Below are positions 118 to 10,088 of a stretch of 43,219 bases of DNA, in pieces. Source of the stretch: an uncultured Pelagibacteraceae bacterium (GTDB lineage Bacteria; Pseudomonadota; Alphaproteobacteria; Pelagibacterales; Pelagibacteraceae). The notes under the pieces were generated by a model, which was given only the letters and a program-made list of their open reading frames with translations, was not told the DNA's origin and did no database searches. Both the position numbers and the translations under genes were made by a program. The stretch spans positions 1 to 43,219 of the forward strand of contig CACDCI010000005.1 of the NCBI GenBank assembly GCA_902551215.1, read 5' to 3'. Numbering within the stretch: position 1 is the stretch's first letter; the number at the start of each line of letters is the position of its first letter.

Positions 118-1140
118 ATGAAAAAAATACTAAGCTTATTTTCTGGTGCAGGTGGTATTGATATTGGTTTCAAAAGCAATTCTTTTGAAACTTATGCTGC
201 GATAGATAATTGGCAAGTAGCTTGTGAAACTTTAAAAAAAAATAAAATTTCAAAAAATATAATCTGTTCAGATATTAAAGATGTGAAATTTTCTAAATTT
301 AAAGGTAAAGTAGACATAATTGTTGGTGGTCCACCTTGTCCTCCTTATTCTAAGTCACGTTTTTATATTAAAGAAAAAAAGAGAGCTTTAGAGGATGAAG
401 ATTCTTATACTTTAATTTATTTTTGCAAAGCATTAAAAATTATTAAACCCAAAGTGTTTTTTTTTGAAAATGTTCATGGATTTTTTTATAAACCTCATAA
501 ACCAGCACTAGATTATTTTGAAAATGAGTGTAACAAAGCTAGCTATAATTTAAGTTATAAAGTTATTAATTGCGCAGATTATGGAGTTCCGCAAATAAGA
601 CAAAGATTTATTTGTGTGGGTGTTTTAAAAGAACTTGGAAAATTTGATTTCCCTGAAACCACACACTCAAAAAAAGAAGAAGATAATTTACTTTATAAAA
701 AAGAAAAATGGATTAATTGTAAAAAAGCAATTGGAGATCTAGATATAGATTTACCTAAAGATAAAAAAAATATTGCAGGATCAAAACATAAAAACTTATT
801 AAAATTAATTCCTCCTGGAGATAATTATCTTTATTTTACAAAAGAAAGAGGTCACTCAAAGCCAAAGTTTAAATGGAGATCTAGATATTGGTCATTTTTA
901 TTAAAACTATCCCCAAAAGAACCCTCTTGGACAATTCAAGCAAGTTTTTCAAATAATATGGGCCCCTTCCATTGGAAAAATAGATTTTTAAGAATAAATG
1001 AAATTAAAAGAATTCAAACATTTCCTGACAATTATAAGTTAACTGGTGATTTTAGAGACCAGTGGAGATTAATAGGAAATGCTGTTCCACCTCTTCTAGC
1101 TAAAATAATTTCAAAAGAGATACTAAAACAATTTTTTTAA
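118..1140 (+). CDS. DNA (cytosine-5-)-methyltransferase
   Basis: C5-MTase motifs: LSLFSGAGGIDIGF (I), GGPPCPPYSKSR (IV, catalytic PPC), FFENVHGF (VI), QIRQRF (VIII), RLIGNAVPPLLA (X). Confidence 0.95.
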   Translation: MKKILSLFSGAGGIDIGFKSNSFETYAAIDNWQVACETLKKNKISKNIICSDIKDVKFSKFKGKVDIIVGGPPCPPYSKSRFYIKEKKRALEDEDSYTLIYFCKALKIIKPKVFFFENVHGFFYKPHKPALDYFENECNKASYNLSYKVINCADYGVPQIRQRFICVGVLKELGKFDFPETTHSKKEEDNLLYKKEKWINCKKAIGDLDIDLPKDKKNIAGSKHKNLLKLIPPGDNYLYFTKERGHSKPKFKWRSRYWSFLLKLSPKEPSWTIQASFSNNMGPFHWKNRFLRINEIKRIQTFPDNYKLTGDFRDQWRLIGNAVPPLLAKIISKEILKQFF

Positions 1141-2091
1141 TTACTGTAAAAATTCGTAGTTTGAAAAATCATTAATACTTTCTATGCCATTTAAATTTGA
1201 TTCAAATTTAATATTTCTTAATCCAGACATTGGAGTTTCTTTAATTCTAGGAACTTTGTTTGAGTCAAAAAATTTAACATGATCTTCTGCATATTCACAA
1301 CTATGCCTTACTTCATCTAGCTCTCTTTGAATCTTTGAGCCTGTATAAATATCATACATTTCTTGTAATTTTTCTTTCAAATCATTATTATTAATTTGTT
1401 TTAAAATATCATTTTTTAAATCCAGTAAAGAGGAACCAGATCTTGATTTTCTTATTAAAACTGAACCAATAATTATTTTTGTATTTTTTGAATTTAATTG
1501 TTCATATTTAAAGATATGCTTTCTGTCATTTTTTTCAGTCGTTTTAATTTCTAAAGCATGGTTTCTAATTAAAAAATCAAAAGTATCGTTCGTCTCAGGG
1601 TGCCAAGCTTCAATTAGTAACTCCTTGGCTTTTAAATGCTTAATTATAAATAACTCTCCCCAAAAACCCGTTAAATCTATATTTCTTTTATTTGAAATTT
1701 TTTCAAATAATTTAATTAGATTTCTTGTCAATTCATAAATTTCTTTTTCCGATATGTTGTTTGATAGATTAACAACAATATTGTCCATCGTTCTTAAAAA
1801 AATTTCCTTTAAATTTTCTTCATTGGTCTCTAATTTTAAAATACTTAACTTTTCTATTTTTTTTTTATTATTTGAATAAATAGTGCATGTTATCCCGTGT
1901 TCTAAATTTATATATCTAATGTTTTCTTTTTTTCCTTTTGGTTTTGAGGCATTAAATAAAATTGCGACATGATTCTTGCCATTGATCCCAAGCAAATGTT
2001 TGCTATTTCTACTTAATTTGACAGTGTTGTAGCTTCGTTCACTTTTATTTTTTAGTTTAGAAATATTTTTATATTTTCTAAATAAACTCAT
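1141..2091 (-). CDS. PD-(D/E)XK motif protein, DUF4420-like putative restriction endonuclease
   Basis: FWGELFIIKHL...HPETNDTFDFLIRNHALEIKTTEK carries a D-x(n)-ExK nuclease core; ATGA overlap with the Z1 gene. Confidence 0.8.
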   Translation of the reverse strand: MSLFRKYKNISKLKNKSERSYNTVKLSRNSKHLLGINGKNHVAILFNASKPKGKKENIRYINLEHGITCTIYSNNKKKIEKLSILKLETNEENLKEIFLRTMDNIVVNLSNNISEKEIYELTRNLIKLFEKISNKRNIDLTGFWGELFIIKHLKAKELLIEAWHPETNDTFDFLIRNHALEIKTTEKNDRKHIFKYEQLNSKNTKIIIGSVLIRKSRSGSSLLDLKNDILKQINNNDLKEKLQEMYDIYTGSKIQRELDEVRHSCEYAEDHVKFFDSNKVPRIKETPMSGLRNIKFESNLNGIESINDFSNYEFLQ

Positions 2092-4706
2092 CTACGTCTT
2101 CCAATAATACTTTCTTCAAATAAAGCTGTGGGCATAAAGAAACTTAGATATGGAACTTTCGGTGCTATTAACTCCCCTTCTCCATTTTGTTTTTCATAAA
2201 CATTAATTTCATGAATTTGAATTGATGGAATTTGATTACAATGTGTGCTATTAGATATTCCTTTTAAAAATTCCCAATGAATTCTAATATCACCAGGAAA
2301 TAATGTTTTATCATTATGGAAATTTTTTTCAAAATTACTTGATTGTCCCTGAGCTGATGTTACAGGATTTTCTTTAATTTCTTTTAACGATAAAGACTTA
2401 CTGTAAGGTTTACGTGGGTTATTTTCTCCTTCTCTAAAAATAAATAATGGACATGGAGTCTTTAATCTTTGTTCTTTCTTATAAAACCAATCTTCATCGC
2501 TTTCATCAGTCTCTTGTATTGGGTCTAAATAATTATCAATCATACTCATTAAAATACTAAATCTATTCAAATCTCTTGTTTCAAATTCGAAATTATTAAT
2601 TATTTGATCTAAAACTTCTTTTAAAGTGAGATTTTCCATAACTTTTATTTTTTGATTATTTGCCCAAGGATGATTGTTTTTTATATTGTCTATTTGTCTT
2701 AATTCTTTAAAATTATTATTAAATTGAGTATTTAATATTTCATAAGCTTTTCTATTTATTGTTAAATACTTTTCTTCAAGCATATGTGTATATCTACATC
2801 TTATTGATGCCTGGTAAGGCTCTGATCTTGAAACTAAAGACATATCGTTATTAATTCCAGCTCTAGTTAACTTATATTCAGTTCTATTTCTTCCAAACCA
2901 GTATCTTCTCCATGTTTTTAAGTTTTTATTTGATTTTAAAAATCTATCTAAAAACTTCATAAGTTTTTTATTTCTGTCATACTCTCCTTCAAAGAAATTG
3001 AGAACACCATCTGAAAAATATAATCTTAAAAAATCCTCATTTTTTCTTTGATAACCCATGAACCTTGCTCTTTGAAGAAGTGTGTCTTGTTGTTTTGTGC
3101 CTAAAGGTCTACACAAATAGGTTACGGTTAATCCCTCTACAGTATAACCACGATCCAAACCATGACCACCAACTAATATATTTGCGTAATTTCTTCTATA
3201 ATCTACCGTCGGAATTTTTTTTCTTCCCTCTTTTCGTGAAGCATTAAATGGAACGGGTGTAATACCTAAGCATTTTGTCCCTTGAAACAAGCGCCAAAAT
3301 TTTTCATCTGTTGCAGGAATGACAGATTTTGAATTTTTTTTGATTTCCTCTAAATTATCTTTTACTTTTTGCTCAAGTTCCCTAAATTGTTCACTATCTT
3401 TATTAGATAGTGCAAGTCTAAATTCATCTTGCAAACCTTTGATCCAATTTCTATAAATCGTATGTTTTTCAGTAAGACCATGTGGATGCACTATCATGGA
3501 CATATTTTGTCTATCAGAAGACCTGTGTCTGTCTTGATGCATGGCGCAAGTAACGCAAGTTAAAAAATATAAATAAGCATCAACAAAACTTTTTGGCCTT
3601 TCATCGCCAGATCTTTCATATTCATCAATATTAGTTTCTATTCCTTTAACAAATCTATCAATTTTACTTCTGTTTGAGAAAAAATACTCTAGGCCAGTAT
3701 ATGTTTCTCCTGGTGAAATTATTTTTCCAAATGATGGGGATAAATTATTAAATGTATTGATTACTAAAGTTGCATTTGGAGTCGCTGTATAGCCTAAAAA
3801 TGAATGAAACTTAAAAATTTTTCTCAAATTTGTAATTGCTAAATAGGTTGCGGTATCTTCAATCTCTATATTAATTTTTTCTCCTATATAATCTTCAAAA
3901 TTATCCTTTAAATGTATACCTGGATTAATTTCAAATAATTCTTCTAATTCTAGATTAGCCATTTCACATATTTTTTCCAACGTATCGTCTGATTTTATTT
4001 GGTATAATATTCTATCATCTTTCAAGTCAGGATCATTTTTTTTTGCTTTTGTGTTAAGTGAATGATTATCACATTCATCATCAACAATTAAAGTTGGTAT
4101 ATTTGAATATTTAGAAATATTTCCATCACAAGCTTCAAATAAAAGTTTGTATATGTCTCTAATTCTTTTGGGATTTTTCATGGAAAGTATTACGAGAGTT
4201 TTTTTATCTTCCTCAGGTACATCAGGGTTATTCCAATCAATTATATTATTTTTTAAAATTTCATAATATCTGCTATGATCCCATTCATCTTCTACATTTC
4301 TTAAAACTTCAAATTTTCTATCATCCAAAATATTATCGATTCTAGCAGTATTTTGAACCACTAAAGGTCCTACACTTCCTGTTAATAAAATTAAAATTTT
4401 ATATTTATTATCTGCGGCTAAACTAAAAACTGCTTCCATTGATGTTGTTTTTCCACTTTGAATTTGTCCAAAGCAAAGTCCTGTGGAATTTAATTTGACT
4501 TCTTCAATTTTTTCAGGATTTATACATTTTCCTAAAAGTTCTACACTATCTTCAATAAGAGTTTCTTTATCCTTTGACGAAATTTTTTCTTTTTTTTCTA
4601 AATAATTTTTAAAAATTTCTCCATTTCTTAAAGGTGTCCATGTTACATTTTGATTTGGAGATGAACTTGAATTAACTTGATTTATTTCAACTTTAATTTC
4701 TTCCAT
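2088..4706 (-). CDS. Z1 domain-containing helicase/ATPase of a restriction-modification-type system
   Basis: GQIQSGKTTSM (Walker A), LIVDDECDNHSLNT, LGYTATPNATLVIN, ILVGGHGLDRGYTVEGLTVTYLCRPLGTKQQDTLLQRARFMGY. Confidence 0.9.
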   Translation of the reverse strand: MEEIKVEINQVNSSSSPNQNVTWTPLRNGEIFKNYLEKKEKISSKDKETLIEDSVELLGKCINPEKIEEVKLNSTGLCFGQIQSGKTTSMEAVFSLAADNKYKILILLTGSVGPLVVQNTARIDNILDDRKFEVLRNVEDEWDHSRYYEILKNNIIDWNNPDVPEEDKKTLVILSMKNPKRIRDIYKLLFEACDGNISKYSNIPTLIVDDECDNHSLNTKAKKNDPDLKDDRILYQIKSDDTLEKICEMANLELEELFEINPGIHLKDNFEDYIGEKINIEIEDTATYLAITNLRKIFKFHSFLGYTATPNATLVINTFNNLSPSFGKIISPGETYTGLEYFFSNRSKIDRFVKGIETNIDEYERSGDERPKSFVDAYLYFLTCVTCAMHQDRHRSSDRQNMSMIVHPHGLTEKHTIYRNWIKGLQDEFRLALSNKDSEQFRELEQKVKDNLEEIKKNSKSVIPATDEKFWRLFQGTKCLGITPVPFNASRKEGRKKIPTVDYRRNYANILVGGHGLDRGYTVEGLTVTYLCRPLGTKQQDTLLQRARFMGYQRKNEDFLRLYFSDGVLNFFEGEYDRNKKLMKFLDRFLKSNKNLKTWRRYWFGRNRTEYKLTRAGINNDMSLVSRSEPYQASIRCRYTHMLEEKYLTINRKAYEILNTQFNNNFKELRQIDNIKNNHPWANNQKIKVMENLTLKEVLDQIINNFEFETRDLNRFSILMSMIDNYLDPIQETDESDEDWFYKKEQRLKTPCPLFIFREGENNPRKPYSKSLSLKEIKENPVTSAQGQSSNFEKNFHNDKTLFPGDIRIHWEFLKGISNSTHCNQIPSIQIHEINVYEKQNGEGELIAPKVPYLSFFMPTALFEESIIGRRR

Positions 4707-4710
4707 AATT

Positions 4711-6270
4711 TTAATTTATTGTAGGTGGAACAGAGTCGATTATTGCATTAATATATTCTCTTACCATGTGTGTATCTCTAAAACCCCTTTGTTTGCCAAT
4801 AATCTCAGCTAGCACAATATAACACAATAATGAAAGCATACCTTCTATTTCCTTTTCATCATTTCCAAAATATTGAGAACTAAAACCCTTATGCATCATT
4901 ATTTGAATTTCAACTTTTTTATTTTTGCGACCTTTTTTATCAAAACTATATTCTAGCCATTTTTTGTTTTCGACCTCTTTATCATTATTTAAAATTACAT
5001 CAACTTTCCAAGTTTCACCTTGAAAATTAATATTTCTAGATCTAATTTTTATTGGTTTTGATTTAGGTTTTGGTAGTTCTTTTAATATCTCTATAGGTTT
5101 ATTGGATTTAAATTCTTCGATCACTGACATGGCTTTGGACAGCTGCACCATCGAAGATGCACCTGCTTTTTCATGTGTGGTTCTTATTTCTGGTTTATTT
5201 AAATCTTGTTTTTTAAATCTTTCTGCTTGTCTGATTAGTGGCATATCATCCGAGTCCAATACCGATTTAAGTTTTGTAAGAAATGACTCTTGTTCATCCA
5301 ATGACCAATTTAAATTATCTTTAGTATGAGTTACTTCCATATCATCATCAAAATGCAACTCACCAAATAACCTCCTTGATATCTGTGATCCTTCTTGTCT
5401 AACTAGTTTTAATGGTCTCCAAGCTTTTTCATCACTTCCAAATATCATCCTCTCTCGTCTAAAAACGGAAAAACCAGCTTTTTTAGAGTCACTTGGGTCT
5501 GCAAGTGCAGCGTAACCCTCAACCTTATGTTTTTTATGATCGCAACTCAAAGGAAAATAAAAACTAAATTTTTTTTTCCAAGTTATTTTTTTTGGATTAA
5601 TTACCTCATCATCTAAATCCTTGTAGCTTGGCGCTTTTAAAATATTGAATCCTTTATGTCTTAATAAAGATCCATTGTACCTAATTTCTATTTCATCTTG
5701 ATCTATATATGCTCTATACATAGATGCTAAATGATTTTTTACACTTTCAACTTCTCTACCTCTAACTTTATGAATTAAATCTCTTAATATAACAACAGTA
5801 TAATGTGTATTAGTTGGCATCTTCGCTGTTCTATAGGCAAGCTTCTCATTAAGATCCTCAGTTATTTTTTCAATATCAAATTTTGCTTCTGTTGCGAAGG
5901 GTTCGCCCATTGCTTTTGATTTGACTACCCAAAGATTAGAAAACCAACAAGCAGCTGTTTTCATTCCCATTCCAAATTCAGATAATCCTGAAGTTTTTTT
6001 TGGTCTCATTGCAGCTTGAAAAGCTCTTTCGTAATTTTTTTGATCTATGCCTGCTGCATTATCTTTAACTTCTATTGTTGAACCACTTACTGAAATATCA
6101 ATTTTTAATTTATAATTGCTATGCAGTTTTCTTAATCTCAATTTATTATCTAAATAACTTTGAACTGAATTATCTACAAATTCAGCCATTGCATGCCAAG
6201 GAGTATAATTAATTCTTGACAAAACTCCAAGATAACCAACAGTTGGCCTAATATTGATGGTGTTGCTCAT
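4711..6270 (-). CDS. GHKL (HATPase_c_3, MORC/MutL-like) ATPase
   Basis: N-box MAEFVDNSVQSY, G1 VKDNAAGI, G2 GLSEFGMGMKTAACWFS. Confidence 0.88.
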   Translation of the reverse strand: MSNTINIRPTVGYLGVLSRINYTPWHAMAEFVDNSVQSYLDNKLRLRKLHSNYKLKIDISVSGSTIEVKDNAAGIDQKNYERAFQAAMRPKKTSGLSEFGMGMKTAACWFSNLWVVKSKAMGEPFATEAKFDIEKITEDLNEKLAYRTAKMPTNTHYTVVILRDLIHKVRGREVESVKNHLASMYRAYIDQDEIEIRYNGSLLRHKGFNILKAPSYKDLDDEVINPKKITWKKKFSFYFPLSCDHKKHKVEGYAALADPSDSKKAGFSVFRRERMIFGSDEKAWRPLKLVRQEGSQISRRLFGELHFDDDMEVTHTKDNLNWSLDEQESFLTKLKSVLDSDDMPLIRQAERFKKQDLNKPEIRTTHEKAGASSMVQLSKAMSVIEEFKSNKPIEILKELPKPKSKPIKIRSRNINFQGETWKVDVILNNDKEVENKKWLEYSFDKKGRKNKKVEIQIMMHKGFSSQYFGNDEKEIEGMLSLLCYIVLAEIIGKQRGFRDTHMVREYINAIIDSVPPTIN

Positions 6271-6281
6271 AACTTTTAACT

Positions 6282-6851
6282 TTAAATTATAACTTTAGAT
6301 AAATAATTTCTATAAAAATTTAAAGCATCGTCTTTTAATTCAACGGGGAAAATTTTTTTATCTATTTTTTTGTTGTAACTTTTATCTGAATTTCCTGCCT
6401 CTCTATAATCAATTTCTAAAAATGGATCATCTTTAGGTGTTTTTTGTTTGTAATGGAATCCGGTGTTATATCCTTGGTCATTTTTATAAGATATATACCA
6501 GCAAACATACTCTTTTCCACTTATCATGCTTCCACAAGGTTTAACTTTATTTTTAACTCGACTTTGGGACCAGTCAAACTCTTCTTTTAATATGCTATAT
6601 ATTTCTTCAAGCAATTCTTGTGCTTTTGCGCTTTTTCCTCCTAAAATTTTTTTAGCAGCATTAGGAAATTTAATTCTCATTTTTTTTTCTACTGTCTCAA
6701 CTATTGTCTCTCTTTCAAGATCATTTATATCTTTATGATTCATTGCATTATTAAAAAAATTTATAAGTTCATTCTTTGAATGTTCCTTTGTTTCAATAAT
6801 TTCAATAATTTTTTTAACTTTTTGAGATAATTCTTCTTTTTCCTGATCCAT
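6282..6851 (-). CDS. hypothetical protein, operon member (helical N-terminus, strand-rich C-terminus)
   Basis: ORF tightly packed (11 and 6 nt gaps) in the Z1/GHKL operon; no family recognised. Confidence 0.7.
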   Translation of the reverse strand: MDQEKEELSQKVKKIIEIIETKEHSKNELINFFNNAMNHKDINDLERETIVETVEKKMRIKFPNAAKKILGGKSAKAQELLEEIYSILKEEFDWSQSRVKNKVKPCGSMISGKEYVCWYISYKNDQGYNTGFHYKQKTPKDDPFLEIDYREAGNSDKSYNKKIDKKIFPVELKDDALNFYRNYLSKVII

Positions 6852-6857
6852 ATAAAT

Positions 6858-7373
6858 TTAATTTTTTTTATTTTTATCATTAAATTCAAATGTGAACGAG
6901 TCCTCTGTTATATGAAGTTTTCCTACTTTTTCAGGATGTTTTTTAACTTCTTCTCTCCATTCCTTGTATTGTTCTTCTTTCCAAAGATTATTAATTCCTT
7001 TTTGTTTTTTTAATGCATCTAGATCGTCTAGAAACTTATCTGGGTTAGTTGTCATATGTAGCATAAACATTTGTTGTCGAAGTTTGGTATACTTTAAGTA
7101 TTGAAGTTTTGCGTTTGCTTCTTCTTTCTTATTTAGATTTTCTCTTAAATCTCTTACGCACCAATCAATGGTGAAACGATCTGCTTTAGGGTTTTCAAGA
7201 TTCCATAGACAACTTTGAATGGTTGTATCAGCCCAAGAAATAGTATCCCTTTCTTTCTCAATTTCTAAAATTATTTTCTCAAATTCTTTAGTTTCTTTTG
7301 TGCTGTTTTGAAACATGCCCATAGGACCTCCTGTTGTTTGATTGTATGTGGGCATAATAAAATATGCCCACAT
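6858..7373 (-). CDS. hypothetical charged, mostly helical protein, operon member; the start may be the internal Met at 7355
   Basis: ORF continuous with the operon; in-frame second ATG (MPTYNQTTGG) 18 nt downstream of the first. Confidence 0.65.
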   Translation of the reverse strand: MWAYFIMPTYNQTTGGPMGMFQNSTKETKEFEKIILEIEKERDTISWADTTIQSCLWNLENPKADRFTIDWCVRDLRENLNKKEEANAKLQYLKYTKLRQQMFMLHMTTNPDKFLDDLDALKKQKGINNLWKEEQYKEWREEVKKHPEKVGKLHITEDSFTFEFNDKNKKN

Positions 7374-7374
7374 A
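7345..7374. repeat. perfect 12-bp inverted repeat with 6-nt loop (tatgtgggcata-ataaaa-tatgcccacata)
   Basis: Direct reading; covers both candidate start codons of the 6858-7373 CDS. Confidence 0.9.
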
Positions 7375-7380
7375 TTCTAT

Positions 7381-7551
7381 TTATTTTTTTATTTTAAAGC
7401 CGTGCTTCTCTAAAAGACGTTTGAGGTTTTCTAATCGTTCCTCTTTGCTTGTCTTAGAGTCGCCTATCTTTTCGAAAAATAAAAGTTTTTTTCCTTCTTT
7501 TTCTTTTGAAGCAAAATATTCTTTTATTGGCTTTATGGTGAATTTAACCAT
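7381..7551 (-). CDS. 56-aa small protein MVKFTIKPIKEYFASKEKEGKKLLFFEKIGDSKTSKEERLENLKRLLEKHGFKIKK
   Basis: Read on the minus strand with a strong Shine-Dalgarno (taaaggaggaatATG); first ORF of the minus operon; absent from the supplied track (below length cutoff). Confidence 0.65.
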   Translation of the reverse strand: MVKFTIKPIKEYFASKEKEGKKLLFFEKIGDSKTSKEERLENLKRLLEKHGFKIKK

Positions 7552-7725
7552 ATTCCTCCTTTAGCGTTGTTTTTAAAGTCCCAGCAAGTAGAGTTGATTT
7601 CTAAATCAGGACTAATTTCATTTTATCAGAAAAAAATAATTAATCAAATTTATGCCACTATTATTTATTATATTAATAATTGTTAAGGTTCTTTATTCTT
7701 AAGAATTCTTTTTCAACTAACATTT

Positions 7726-8121
7726 ATGAAACAATTAAAACTAGGTTTTAATGAGATAAATCTCTTAGGAGATTATGATGCCGCAGAGGTCATTGATGAA
7801 GGCAAGTTTAAGCATAAAACTATGCATCATAGTTGGTCAGATACTTTAAGTGATGATGGCAAAAAAATAATTTATCATGAATATACTTACGATACTGACT
7901 CTTATATGGATTTTGAAAACTGGATTCATATCGACAAAAAGGGATTAGATAAAGCAGCATTTAAATGGTTTTGTATGTATTTAAAAGCAGTTGAAAGAAA
8001 AGACAGATTGGAAAAATTCAAAAGACTTTTAAATGATGTAAAAATACCATTTGAAGAAGGAGACTGGCAAACAATAGATAGAGAAAGAGAGGACAATGGA
8101 AAAAAAACAACAAGAAACTAA
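7726..8121 (+). CDS. hypothetical protein, 131 aa
   Basis: ORF divergent from the minus operon; no family recognised. Confidence 0.55.
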   Translation: MKQLKLGFNEINLLGDYDAAEVIDEGKFKHKTMHHSWSDTLSDDGKKIIYHEYTYDTDSYMDFENWIHIDKKGLDKAAFKWFCMYLKAVERKDRLEKFKRLLNDVKIPFEEGDWQTIDREREDNGKKTTRN

Positions 8122-8154
8122 GAAGAAACCTTTTTCGAAAAATTTATTAATTAC

Positions 8155-8207
8155 CACTGACCTCGGGCTTATGAGTCCCGCGCTCTAACCAACTGAGCTA
8201 CCCCGCC
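8155..8207 (-). pseudogene. 3'-truncated tRNA-Met-like gene, anticodon CAU (attachment-site or junction remnant)
   Basis: Minus strand GGCGGGGTAGCTCAGTTGGTTAGAGCGCGGGACTCATAAGCCCGAGGTCAGTGG has the acceptor 5' strand, D arm, anticodon arm with CTCATAA loop and 5' T-stem. It then continues TAATTAATAAA with no T-loop, 3' T-stem or 3' acceptor strand. A31/G39 in the anticodon stem is mismatched. Confidence 0.8.
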
Positions 8208-8986: not shown

Positions 8987-9098
8987 ATATTTTGTAATTT
9001 AACCATGCATTACAAAATTGAACAACATGAAAAAAGCCCATTGTGGGTTTTATCATATTTCATTGTGTCCATTTTAGGTTTGTTCTATATTGTTTTTT

Positions 9099-10088
9099 AT
9101 GAAGGCAAATCTTTCAAAAATTAAAGAAGCAACAGAAACTAAAGATATTAATTGGTGTTTAAAAAAAAATTACAATTCATTGTCAATAGATTGGCATCTA
9201 ATTTTAGAAAAATGGCTGTGCAACTCCTATTCTGTATTTAAAGATCATGAAAAGTATCTAATTCTTATATTGTTAGTAAAAAGAACTTTTGATTATTACA
9301 CTACAAACTTTGTCCAATTAAATTGGAATCAATTTTTTGCATTAAAAAAAATTGAAATTGTAAAATTTAGTATAATTGATATTTCAAAAGAATTACATCT
9401 TTCTAAAGAAACAACAAGAAGAAAGATAGAAGAGCTTGAAAAAATAAATATTATAAAAAAAACAAAAAATGGAATAATTGTTCAACCAGAATTTTATAAT
9501 AATACATTTATTAAAAAGCATGAAGATTTTAGGAAATCAATATGTATATTTATAAGTAAATTTTCTATGATATTAACTGAAGAAAAAATTATTAAAGAAA
9601 AAATAAAATCAGAGATGATAGAAAAAGTTACTTATCAAAATTTTTCTTATGTTTGGAAAGTATTTTTTGAAATGTTGATACCTATGATGGTAGATTTTAG
9701 ATATTCCTTTAAAGACTTAGAAACTTGGCATATATGGGAAACTTGCTTGGTAAATCGAAACTACGAAATTCAAAAATACTTAAAAATAAATAATTTAAAA
9801 GTTAACACTAACAAAGAATTTTTAAAAATTAATTCTAAAACTTTGAATACAGTTGGAATAAACGCGATGTCAATATCTAACATAACTGGAATACCAAGAG
9901 GAACTGTTTTTAGAAAATTACAAATTTTAGTAAAAAAAAATTTTTTGTATATTGATGAAAAAAAACTTTACAATCCGAATATAGAAATTGATCGAAAAAA
10001 TAATTTTTATAAACTAGACTCTGATAATGTTGTCAGACTTTCAGTTTTTATTAATAAACTATTAAACTTAGCAAATGTTTTTAAATAG
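9099..10088 (+). CDS. putative transcriptional regulator with two winged-helix-like segments
   Basis: [26 protein letters not shown] and [26 protein letters not shown] both read as HTH/wing segments. Confidence 0.6.

Follow-up and report, generated by a model that had tools for sequence, protein, structure and literature searches.

A SAR11 island with a putative MORC-Z1-DUF4420-Dcm restriction-modification system, a LysM-like insert in its motor and a candidate SAM-II-type leader

The window, i.e., the whole stretch of DNA analyzed here, is an entire Pelagibacteraceae contig of 43,219 nt (G000:C5; parent assembly of 806 kb, 58.6% complete). It most probably harbors a SAR11-specific MORC-Z1-DUF4420-Dcm restriction-modification system of the kind described by Iyer et al. 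(2008), located in a variable island next to a copy of tRNA-Met and joined by island passengers. Two features that had not been anticipated can be recognized from sequence comparison, namely a probable LysM domain in the SAR11 MORC-Z1 motor and what looks like a SAM-II-type leader in front of a 56-aa ORF. The MORC ATPases of animals and plants are chromatin proteins; very little work has, to our knowledge, been done on their relatives in bacteria, and SAR11 offers several compact MORC loci with a distinctive motor. In the mechanism proposed here, the C5 methyltransferase would mark self DNA, probably together with MTaX1 (methylase-associated X1) and a second methyltransferase encoded off the contig. 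DNA lacking the mark would be clamped or looped by the MORC ATPase, the Z1 SF2 motor would translocate and the DUF4420 nuclease would cut; the LysM insert adjacent to motif III would offer a docking surface on the motor. In this scheme, the 56-, 171-, and 189-aa genes would be separate island modules, the first being translated only when S-adenosylmethionine (SAM) is scarce.

The gene content is as originally predicted: a C5 methyltransferase is accompanied by minus-strand genes for DUF4420, Z1, and GHKL proteins and for ORFs of 189, 171, and 56 aa, all separated by 11 nt or less or overlapping (0, -4, 4, 11, 6, and 7 nt between positions 118 and 7551). The identification of the four core proteins also proved right, each matching its Pfam family (DNA_methylase, DUF4420, Z1, and HATPase_c_3; Table 1) and retaining intact catalytic motifs (4/4). 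The paper cited for the linkage of these genes is the correct one (Iyer, Abhiman and Aravind, 2008; PMC2292703). It describes MORC operons in which a distinct SF2 helicase (DThhQXuRhFG) is associated with an RE-fold E-D-ExK protein, with cytosine methyltransferases and, in many cases, with Vsr nucleases; Candidatus Pelagibacter is already among the species named in the legend of its gene-neighborhood figure (figure 2). The same signatures can be found in the window. The MORC-specific S5 motif GhXhhpXXRhl reads GFSVFRRERMI at aa 266-276 of the GHKL protein and is kept in every homologue checked; the helicase motif reads DTLLQRARFMG, with one substitution (F to M) where SAR11 relatives have RFFG; the adjacent DUF4420 protein displays the E-D-ExK residues in WGELF, FDF, and EIK; and the C5 methyltransferase lies 0 nt from DUF4420. 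Judged from these motifs, the core is a known, little studied MORC/SF2-helicase/RE-fold/Dcm operon type.

Table 1. Positions of the genes and other elements of the island in the window
Feature	Position	Strand	Remarks
MTaX1 gene, 5' end, 28 codons	1..84	-	gene leaves contig at base 1
C5 cytosine DNA methyltransferase, intact	118..1140	+	PF00145 1.4e-63; PPC, ENV, QIRQR, GNAVPP motifs
DUF4420 PD-(D/E)XK nuclease	1141..2091	-	PF14390 4.7e-26; E-D-EIK motif
Z1 SF2 helicase/translocase	2088..4706	-	PF10593 2.8e-27; GQIQSGKT (Walker A), DDE, GYTATP, DTLLQRARFMG
LysM domain inside Z1, between helicase motifs II and III	3864..4004	-	family-level PF01476 matches
MORC-family GHKL ATPase	4711..6270	-	PF13589 3.8e-15; N-box ExxDN, DNAAGI, GMGMK; S5 motif GFSVFRRERMI
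189-aa orphan gene	6282..6851	-	absent from other MORC loci examined
171-aa ORF, likely start 7322 (~154 aa)	6858..7322	-	predicted helical-hairpin protein
13-bp stem-loop, 6-nt loop	7344..7375	-	separates 56-aa and 171-aa genes
56-aa ORF, widespread SAR11 island family	7381..7551	-	
SAM-II-type riboswitch candidate	7555..7612	-	overlaps Shine-Dalgarno of 56-aa ORF
Promoter-like TTGATT-16-TAAAAT	7620..7647	-	end 8 nt ahead of leader
131-aa island ORF	7726..8121	+	in relatives often divergent from 56-aa ORF
tRNA-Met(CAT), 5' 55 nt, 3' end missing	8153..8207	-	island boundary

With regard to the extent of the island, the genes predicted between 118 and 7551 are present but neither limit held, as the island is already running at positions 84-1 (minus strand) and continues beyond 7551 through the 131-aa ORF up to the truncated tRNA-Met copy. 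At the left end, the start of the MTaX1 gene of the window (MVTSSFFNYLKNKNFKLVVENQYNPYKF) can be aligned with that of locus L022 (MLASSIFDYLKNKKSILKVEKNSNPFKF), the protein of which matches PF20296 at 7.4e-11, and the DNA homology of the window to L022 and L023 reaches base 1. Since this start occupies bases 84-1, the system extends off the contig. In L022 and L023, an MTaX1 gene and a second C5 methyltransferase adjoin the methyltransferase, and by comparison these missing parts probably lie off the left end of the window contig. At the other end, the tRNA-Met fragment is 100% identical to bases 1-55 of the intact tRNA-Met of L066. In that locus, which has chromosomal genes in common with the window, a similar tRNA fragment and the intact tRNA-Met bracket a 1.6-kb island carrying 56- and 171-aa genes. 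The tRNA-Met site marks a tRNA-associated insertion hotspot. ARAGORN found no complete tRNA in the window, and no intact tRNA-Met was found elsewhere in its own assembly, which is only 58.6% complete. Beside the island, a 332-aa protein (9090-10085, plus strand) with two weak winged-helix matches is related to a C-terminal piece in L034 and is possibly a regulator.

Defense had been considered unusual in a streamlined marine bacterium; restriction is indeed uncommon in SAR11, but not exceptional, Z1 proteins being found in 19/397 genomes of the order and C5 methyltransferases in 36/151 genomes of the genus. These searches use an even sample of genomes, and absence elsewhere is a statement on that sample. 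Besides the window, MORC-type Z1 loci comprise eight from the Z1 search and L120, recovered via the leader search; the synteny of the core is found in these nine further SAR11 loci, some of which are cut by contig ends. The remaining SAR11 Z1 loci have either another GHKL protein together with AIPR (L029 type) or no recognized GHKL protein. L029, L030, L033, L035, and L037 represent a second class of SAR11 Z1 loci, in which an AIPR-family protein and a C5 methyltransferase are present; L029 has a 395-aa GHKL protein and an MZA-like content. Compared with L022 and L023 over positions 118-4706, modification and restriction genes have diverged strongly unequally, with a methyltransferase identity of 88% versus about 40% for Z1 and 42-43% for DUF4420; MORC is 64% identical to that of L022, L023 retaining a MORC fragment only. 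Upstream of MORC, L024 (4529-7111), L025 (5097-7697), and L120 (3799-6270) encode a large protein of 823-866 aa, the L024 copy of which matches RNA polymerase alpha-CTD and sigma-70 region 4; this protein is possibly a real accessory of MORC loci.

The alignment of Z1 proteins reveals an insert with a LysM pattern between DDExDHHSLN (motif II) and GYTATP (motif III). PF01476 is matched by 7/9 of the aligned proteins (best E-value 3.9e-7), and a profile of the insert matches the LysM domain of LytE (8i2e) at 5e-9; the Z1 protein of the window itself matches PF01476 weakly (E 0.016, 15.6 bits, under the gathering score of 20.9). An HMM built on the insert detects it in 10/10 SAR11 MORC-Z1 proteins (L009, L022-L028, and L120 being listed as carriers) and has no match in 21 other Z1 proteins, namely 9 from SAR11, 10 from other Pseudomonadota and 2 plasmid homologues. 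In the non-SAR11 Z1 proteins tested, the flanking helicase parts are mostly joined directly. No report of LysM in these helicases was found in the literature searched. It is proposed that the insert, beside motif III, may serve as a docking surface on the motor. LysM is normally a cell-wall-binding fold; the insert provides a sharp marker and a site that can be mutated to study how MORC and Z1 cooperate.

Regarding the small genes, no convincing family was found for the 189-, 171-, and 56-aa ORFs in Pfam, NCBIfam, PADLOC, or PHROGs. Neither a sequence search of solved structures nor Foldseek yielded anything significant for the 171- and 189-aa proteins. PURA, the best fold match of the 189-aa protein, was not used (E 0.1, TM 0.27). 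For the 171-aa ORF, 7322 (M18) is a more probable start than 7373, because a GGAGG Shine-Dalgarno is present there, most homologues align only from about M18 and a 13-bp inverted repeat (7344-7375) covers the supposed start at 7373; its product is predicted to form a helical hairpin. The family of the 189-aa protein can be found in 6 other genomes of 397, one by a weak interrupted match; L032 carries it on the same island as a Z1 gene of a different type. In IMG/VR, it is limited to a single contig (L282, IMGVR_UViG_3300025425_002733), together with an integrase and a helicase; this contig is classed as viral and may be a mobile island instead of a phage. A phage origin of both genes was considered and rejected, with no matches to annotated phages, the 171-aa family absent from IMG/VR and the 189-aa family on that one contig. 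From its distribution, the 189-aa gene appears as an island passenger, not a conserved part of the system.

The 171-aa family occurs in 10 other genomes, two of them with marginal matches, and its gene often comes first in front of varying partners. It precedes PvuRts1I_N+SRA in L060 (2178-3484) and McrB_N+NucS_C/YhcG_C in L062 (9503-10884) and L063 (6889-8270), and it is followed by a weak DUF4365 match in L067 and by proteins without a recognized family in L061 and L123. These associations suggest that the family is an unrecognized companion of modification-dependent-type nucleases, and a restriction-related role is plausible for it. The L123 sequence matches window positions 6858-7632 at 91.6% DNA identity and then diverges, with no MORC beside it, so that the leader and the 56- and 171-aa genes form a unit that moves in the absence of MORC. 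It can be asked whether SAR11 restriction nucleases have in the 171-aa protein a generic controller or immunity factor, recruited in the window to the vicinity of MORC, with the 189-aa protein as a variable partner effector, which would be compatible with the restriction-modification system favored here. The leading position of the gene, the changing identity of the second gene (189 aa in the window) and the predicted helical hairpin speak for this reading. However, it draws on about ten loci only, L064, L065, and L066 display no recognizable nuclease directly after the 171-aa gene, no fold match was found, and the 189-aa family also occurs without the 171-aa gene; it is regarded as possible but doubtful.

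The 56-aa gene is of a kind widespread in SAR11 islands and is present in most Z1 islands of this MORC-Z1 family, but its orientation towards MORC is not conserved. It is divergent from MORC in L022, L024, L025, and L120, and since it faces away there, the leader cannot be a general switch of the MORC operon. In the window, the small gap to its neighbor was borne out, but its co-transcription with the other genes can only be presumed, the hairpin at 7344-7375 intervening. This stem-loop is terminator-like on the plus strand only. Promoter-like sites in the region number 5 for 2.2 expected by chance. The 60 nt in front of the ORF are more conserved between islands than the 56-aa protein, and the core of the leader is nearly invariant. 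In L034 (4940-5044, minus strand), leader and 56-aa gene are degraded at the same place, a joint decay that is expected if they work as a pair.

Against Rfam RF00521 (SAM-II), the leader scores 23.6 bits (E 0.0068), below the gathering score of 36; two SAR11 metX leaders, a known SAM-II site, likewise reach only 30 bits. It has in common with SAM-II the P1 stem and the GAUUUA loop, UUGC, UUUAAA, and CGCUAAA segments, and differs in having a CUCU loop segment that could pair with the Shine-Dalgarno and in preceding small island ORFs instead of methionine genes. A model built from nine leaders (R1), with which the window leader scores 86.8 bits, gives 36 strong matches (61-89 bits) in 33/151 genomes of the genus (22%), and small ORFs, mostly of the 56-aa family, lie downstream of the strong matches inspected. 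In a second group at 25-36 bits, 7/11 inspected matches are metX or bhmT leaders and 4/11 are chance-like; SAM-II riboswitches of both genes have been reported in Pelagibacter (PMC2704228; PMC5069961). Several unrelated small ORFs can also follow the leader (e.g., in L141, L154, L182, L191, and L193), and the loci L068-L097 and L141-L220 place it before a family of 55-58-aa ORFs and unrelated small ORFs in SAR11 islands. Among the listed matches of the leader pattern on genome contigs, 79/80 lie in records titled Pelagibacteraceae, and IMG/VR contains no match.

Across 57 unique leaders, 285/285 P1 pairs can form, with GU, GC, and AU replacements, compared with at most 275 for shuffled arms. 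Folding of the single sequence is no better than that of shuffles (z = 0.91), and support for the leader structure comes from covariation. The loop CUCU is able to pair with the GGAG of the Shine-Dalgarno (predicted P2a), an arrangement proposed for translational OFF switches of the SAM-II class (PMC6061858). From its conserved elements, the leader looks like a riboswitch sensing SAM and is a candidate for this function.

In the same sample of 151 genomes, C5 methyltransferases are found in 20/33 genomes with the leader versus 16/118 without it (Fisher p = 1.9e-7), and the two lie within 10 kb of each other in 12 genomes. This co-occurrence is an association, not a function, because the genomes share ancestry and islands are home to both types of gene. 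The leader could be a SAM-responsive safety element, in which low SAM, due to sulfur starvation or to SAM-degrading phage enzymes, would induce the 56-aa protein and thereby limit self-restriction or provide a second line of defense. The SAM-II-type core, the covarying P1, the location of the Shine-Dalgarno inside the predicted P2a and the association with methyltransferases are all consistent with it. On the other hand, most leader loci have no nearby C5 methyltransferase (17/80 have one in the 8 kb examined), island hotspots could gather the two independently and the genomes are not phylogenetically independent, which leaves such a role rather unlikely. A broader conjecture, which we regard as quite unlikely to hold in full, is that SAR11 restriction islands are coupled to the supply of the methyl donor: an island-borne SAM-II-type riboswitch would induce a small protein when SAM falls below the level needed to keep DNA methylated, either to shield the cell from its own restriction system or to counter SAM-degrading enzymes of phages, and the MORC-Z1 motor would in addition have taken up LysM as a docking part. 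The leader represents a concrete candidate link between methyl-donor supply and restriction-modification islands among the most abundant bacteria of the ocean.

The original prediction suggested that the three additional genes may mark an extended subtype, in which the 56-, 171-, and 189-aa products would be dedicated subunits of the MORC system. Their common strand, the tight spacing, the place of the 171-aa family at the head of other nuclease operons and the proximity of the 56-aa gene to most Z1 loci are in agreement with it. However, the proposal failed in the neighborhood comparison: tblastn and clustering found the 189- and 171-aa genes in no other SAR11 MORC-Z1 locus examined, and neither is present in the homologous operon of a Rathayibacter plasmid. 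The movement of leader, 56-aa gene and 171-aa gene as a unit without MORC, and the divergent 56-aa genes of the four loci named above, argue further against dedicated subunits, and an extended subtype is considered distinctly improbable. As a counter-point to the restriction-modification system with separate island modules that is preferred here, the 171- and 189-aa genes abut MORC in a tight head-to-tail arrangement, and a local functional link with it may exist.

Several known systems share parts of this architecture. MZA (MutL-Z1-DUF-AIPR; MzaA-E) likewise combines a GHKL ATPase, a Z1 helicase and a PD-(D/E)XK protein, but it has an AIPR protein where the window island has a Dcm methyltransferase. 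That the locus is an MZA-type phage-defense system is hardly credible and membership was rejected, since the weak similarity to the MzaB, MzaC, and MzaD models (18/850, 80/1500, and 23/420 bits) falls far under the NCBIfam cut-offs, the window island revealed no AIPR gene (the contig ending on one side), and L029, another SAR11 locus, has AIPR together with a different GHKL protein. CglI and NgoAVII have in common with the window a methyltransferase and an SF2-Z1 motor, the latter being required for cleavage, and their nuclease is a PLD-B3 R-protein (PMC4267653); they harbor neither MORC nor DUF4420, and no PLD-B3 R-protein was found among the island ORFs searched, the nuclease here being DUF4420. 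The same four core genes can be found in the dcm-ATPase-Z1-PD-(D/E)XK operon of the Rathayibacter festucae plasmid NZ_CP047182, with identities of 33% for MORC, 31-33% for Z1, and 23% for DUF4420; this operon has no LysM insert and no extra small genes, and its methyltransferase is in the same direction. Compared with the third type of MORC operon (Iyer et al., 2008; PMC2292703), no Vsr gene is seen on this contig. Both have the MORC GHKL protein with S5 motif, the SF2 helicase, the RE-fold protein and the cytosine methyltransferase; the SAR11 version additionally has a helicase bearing the LysM insert, an MTaX1 gene and, probably, a second methyltransferase.
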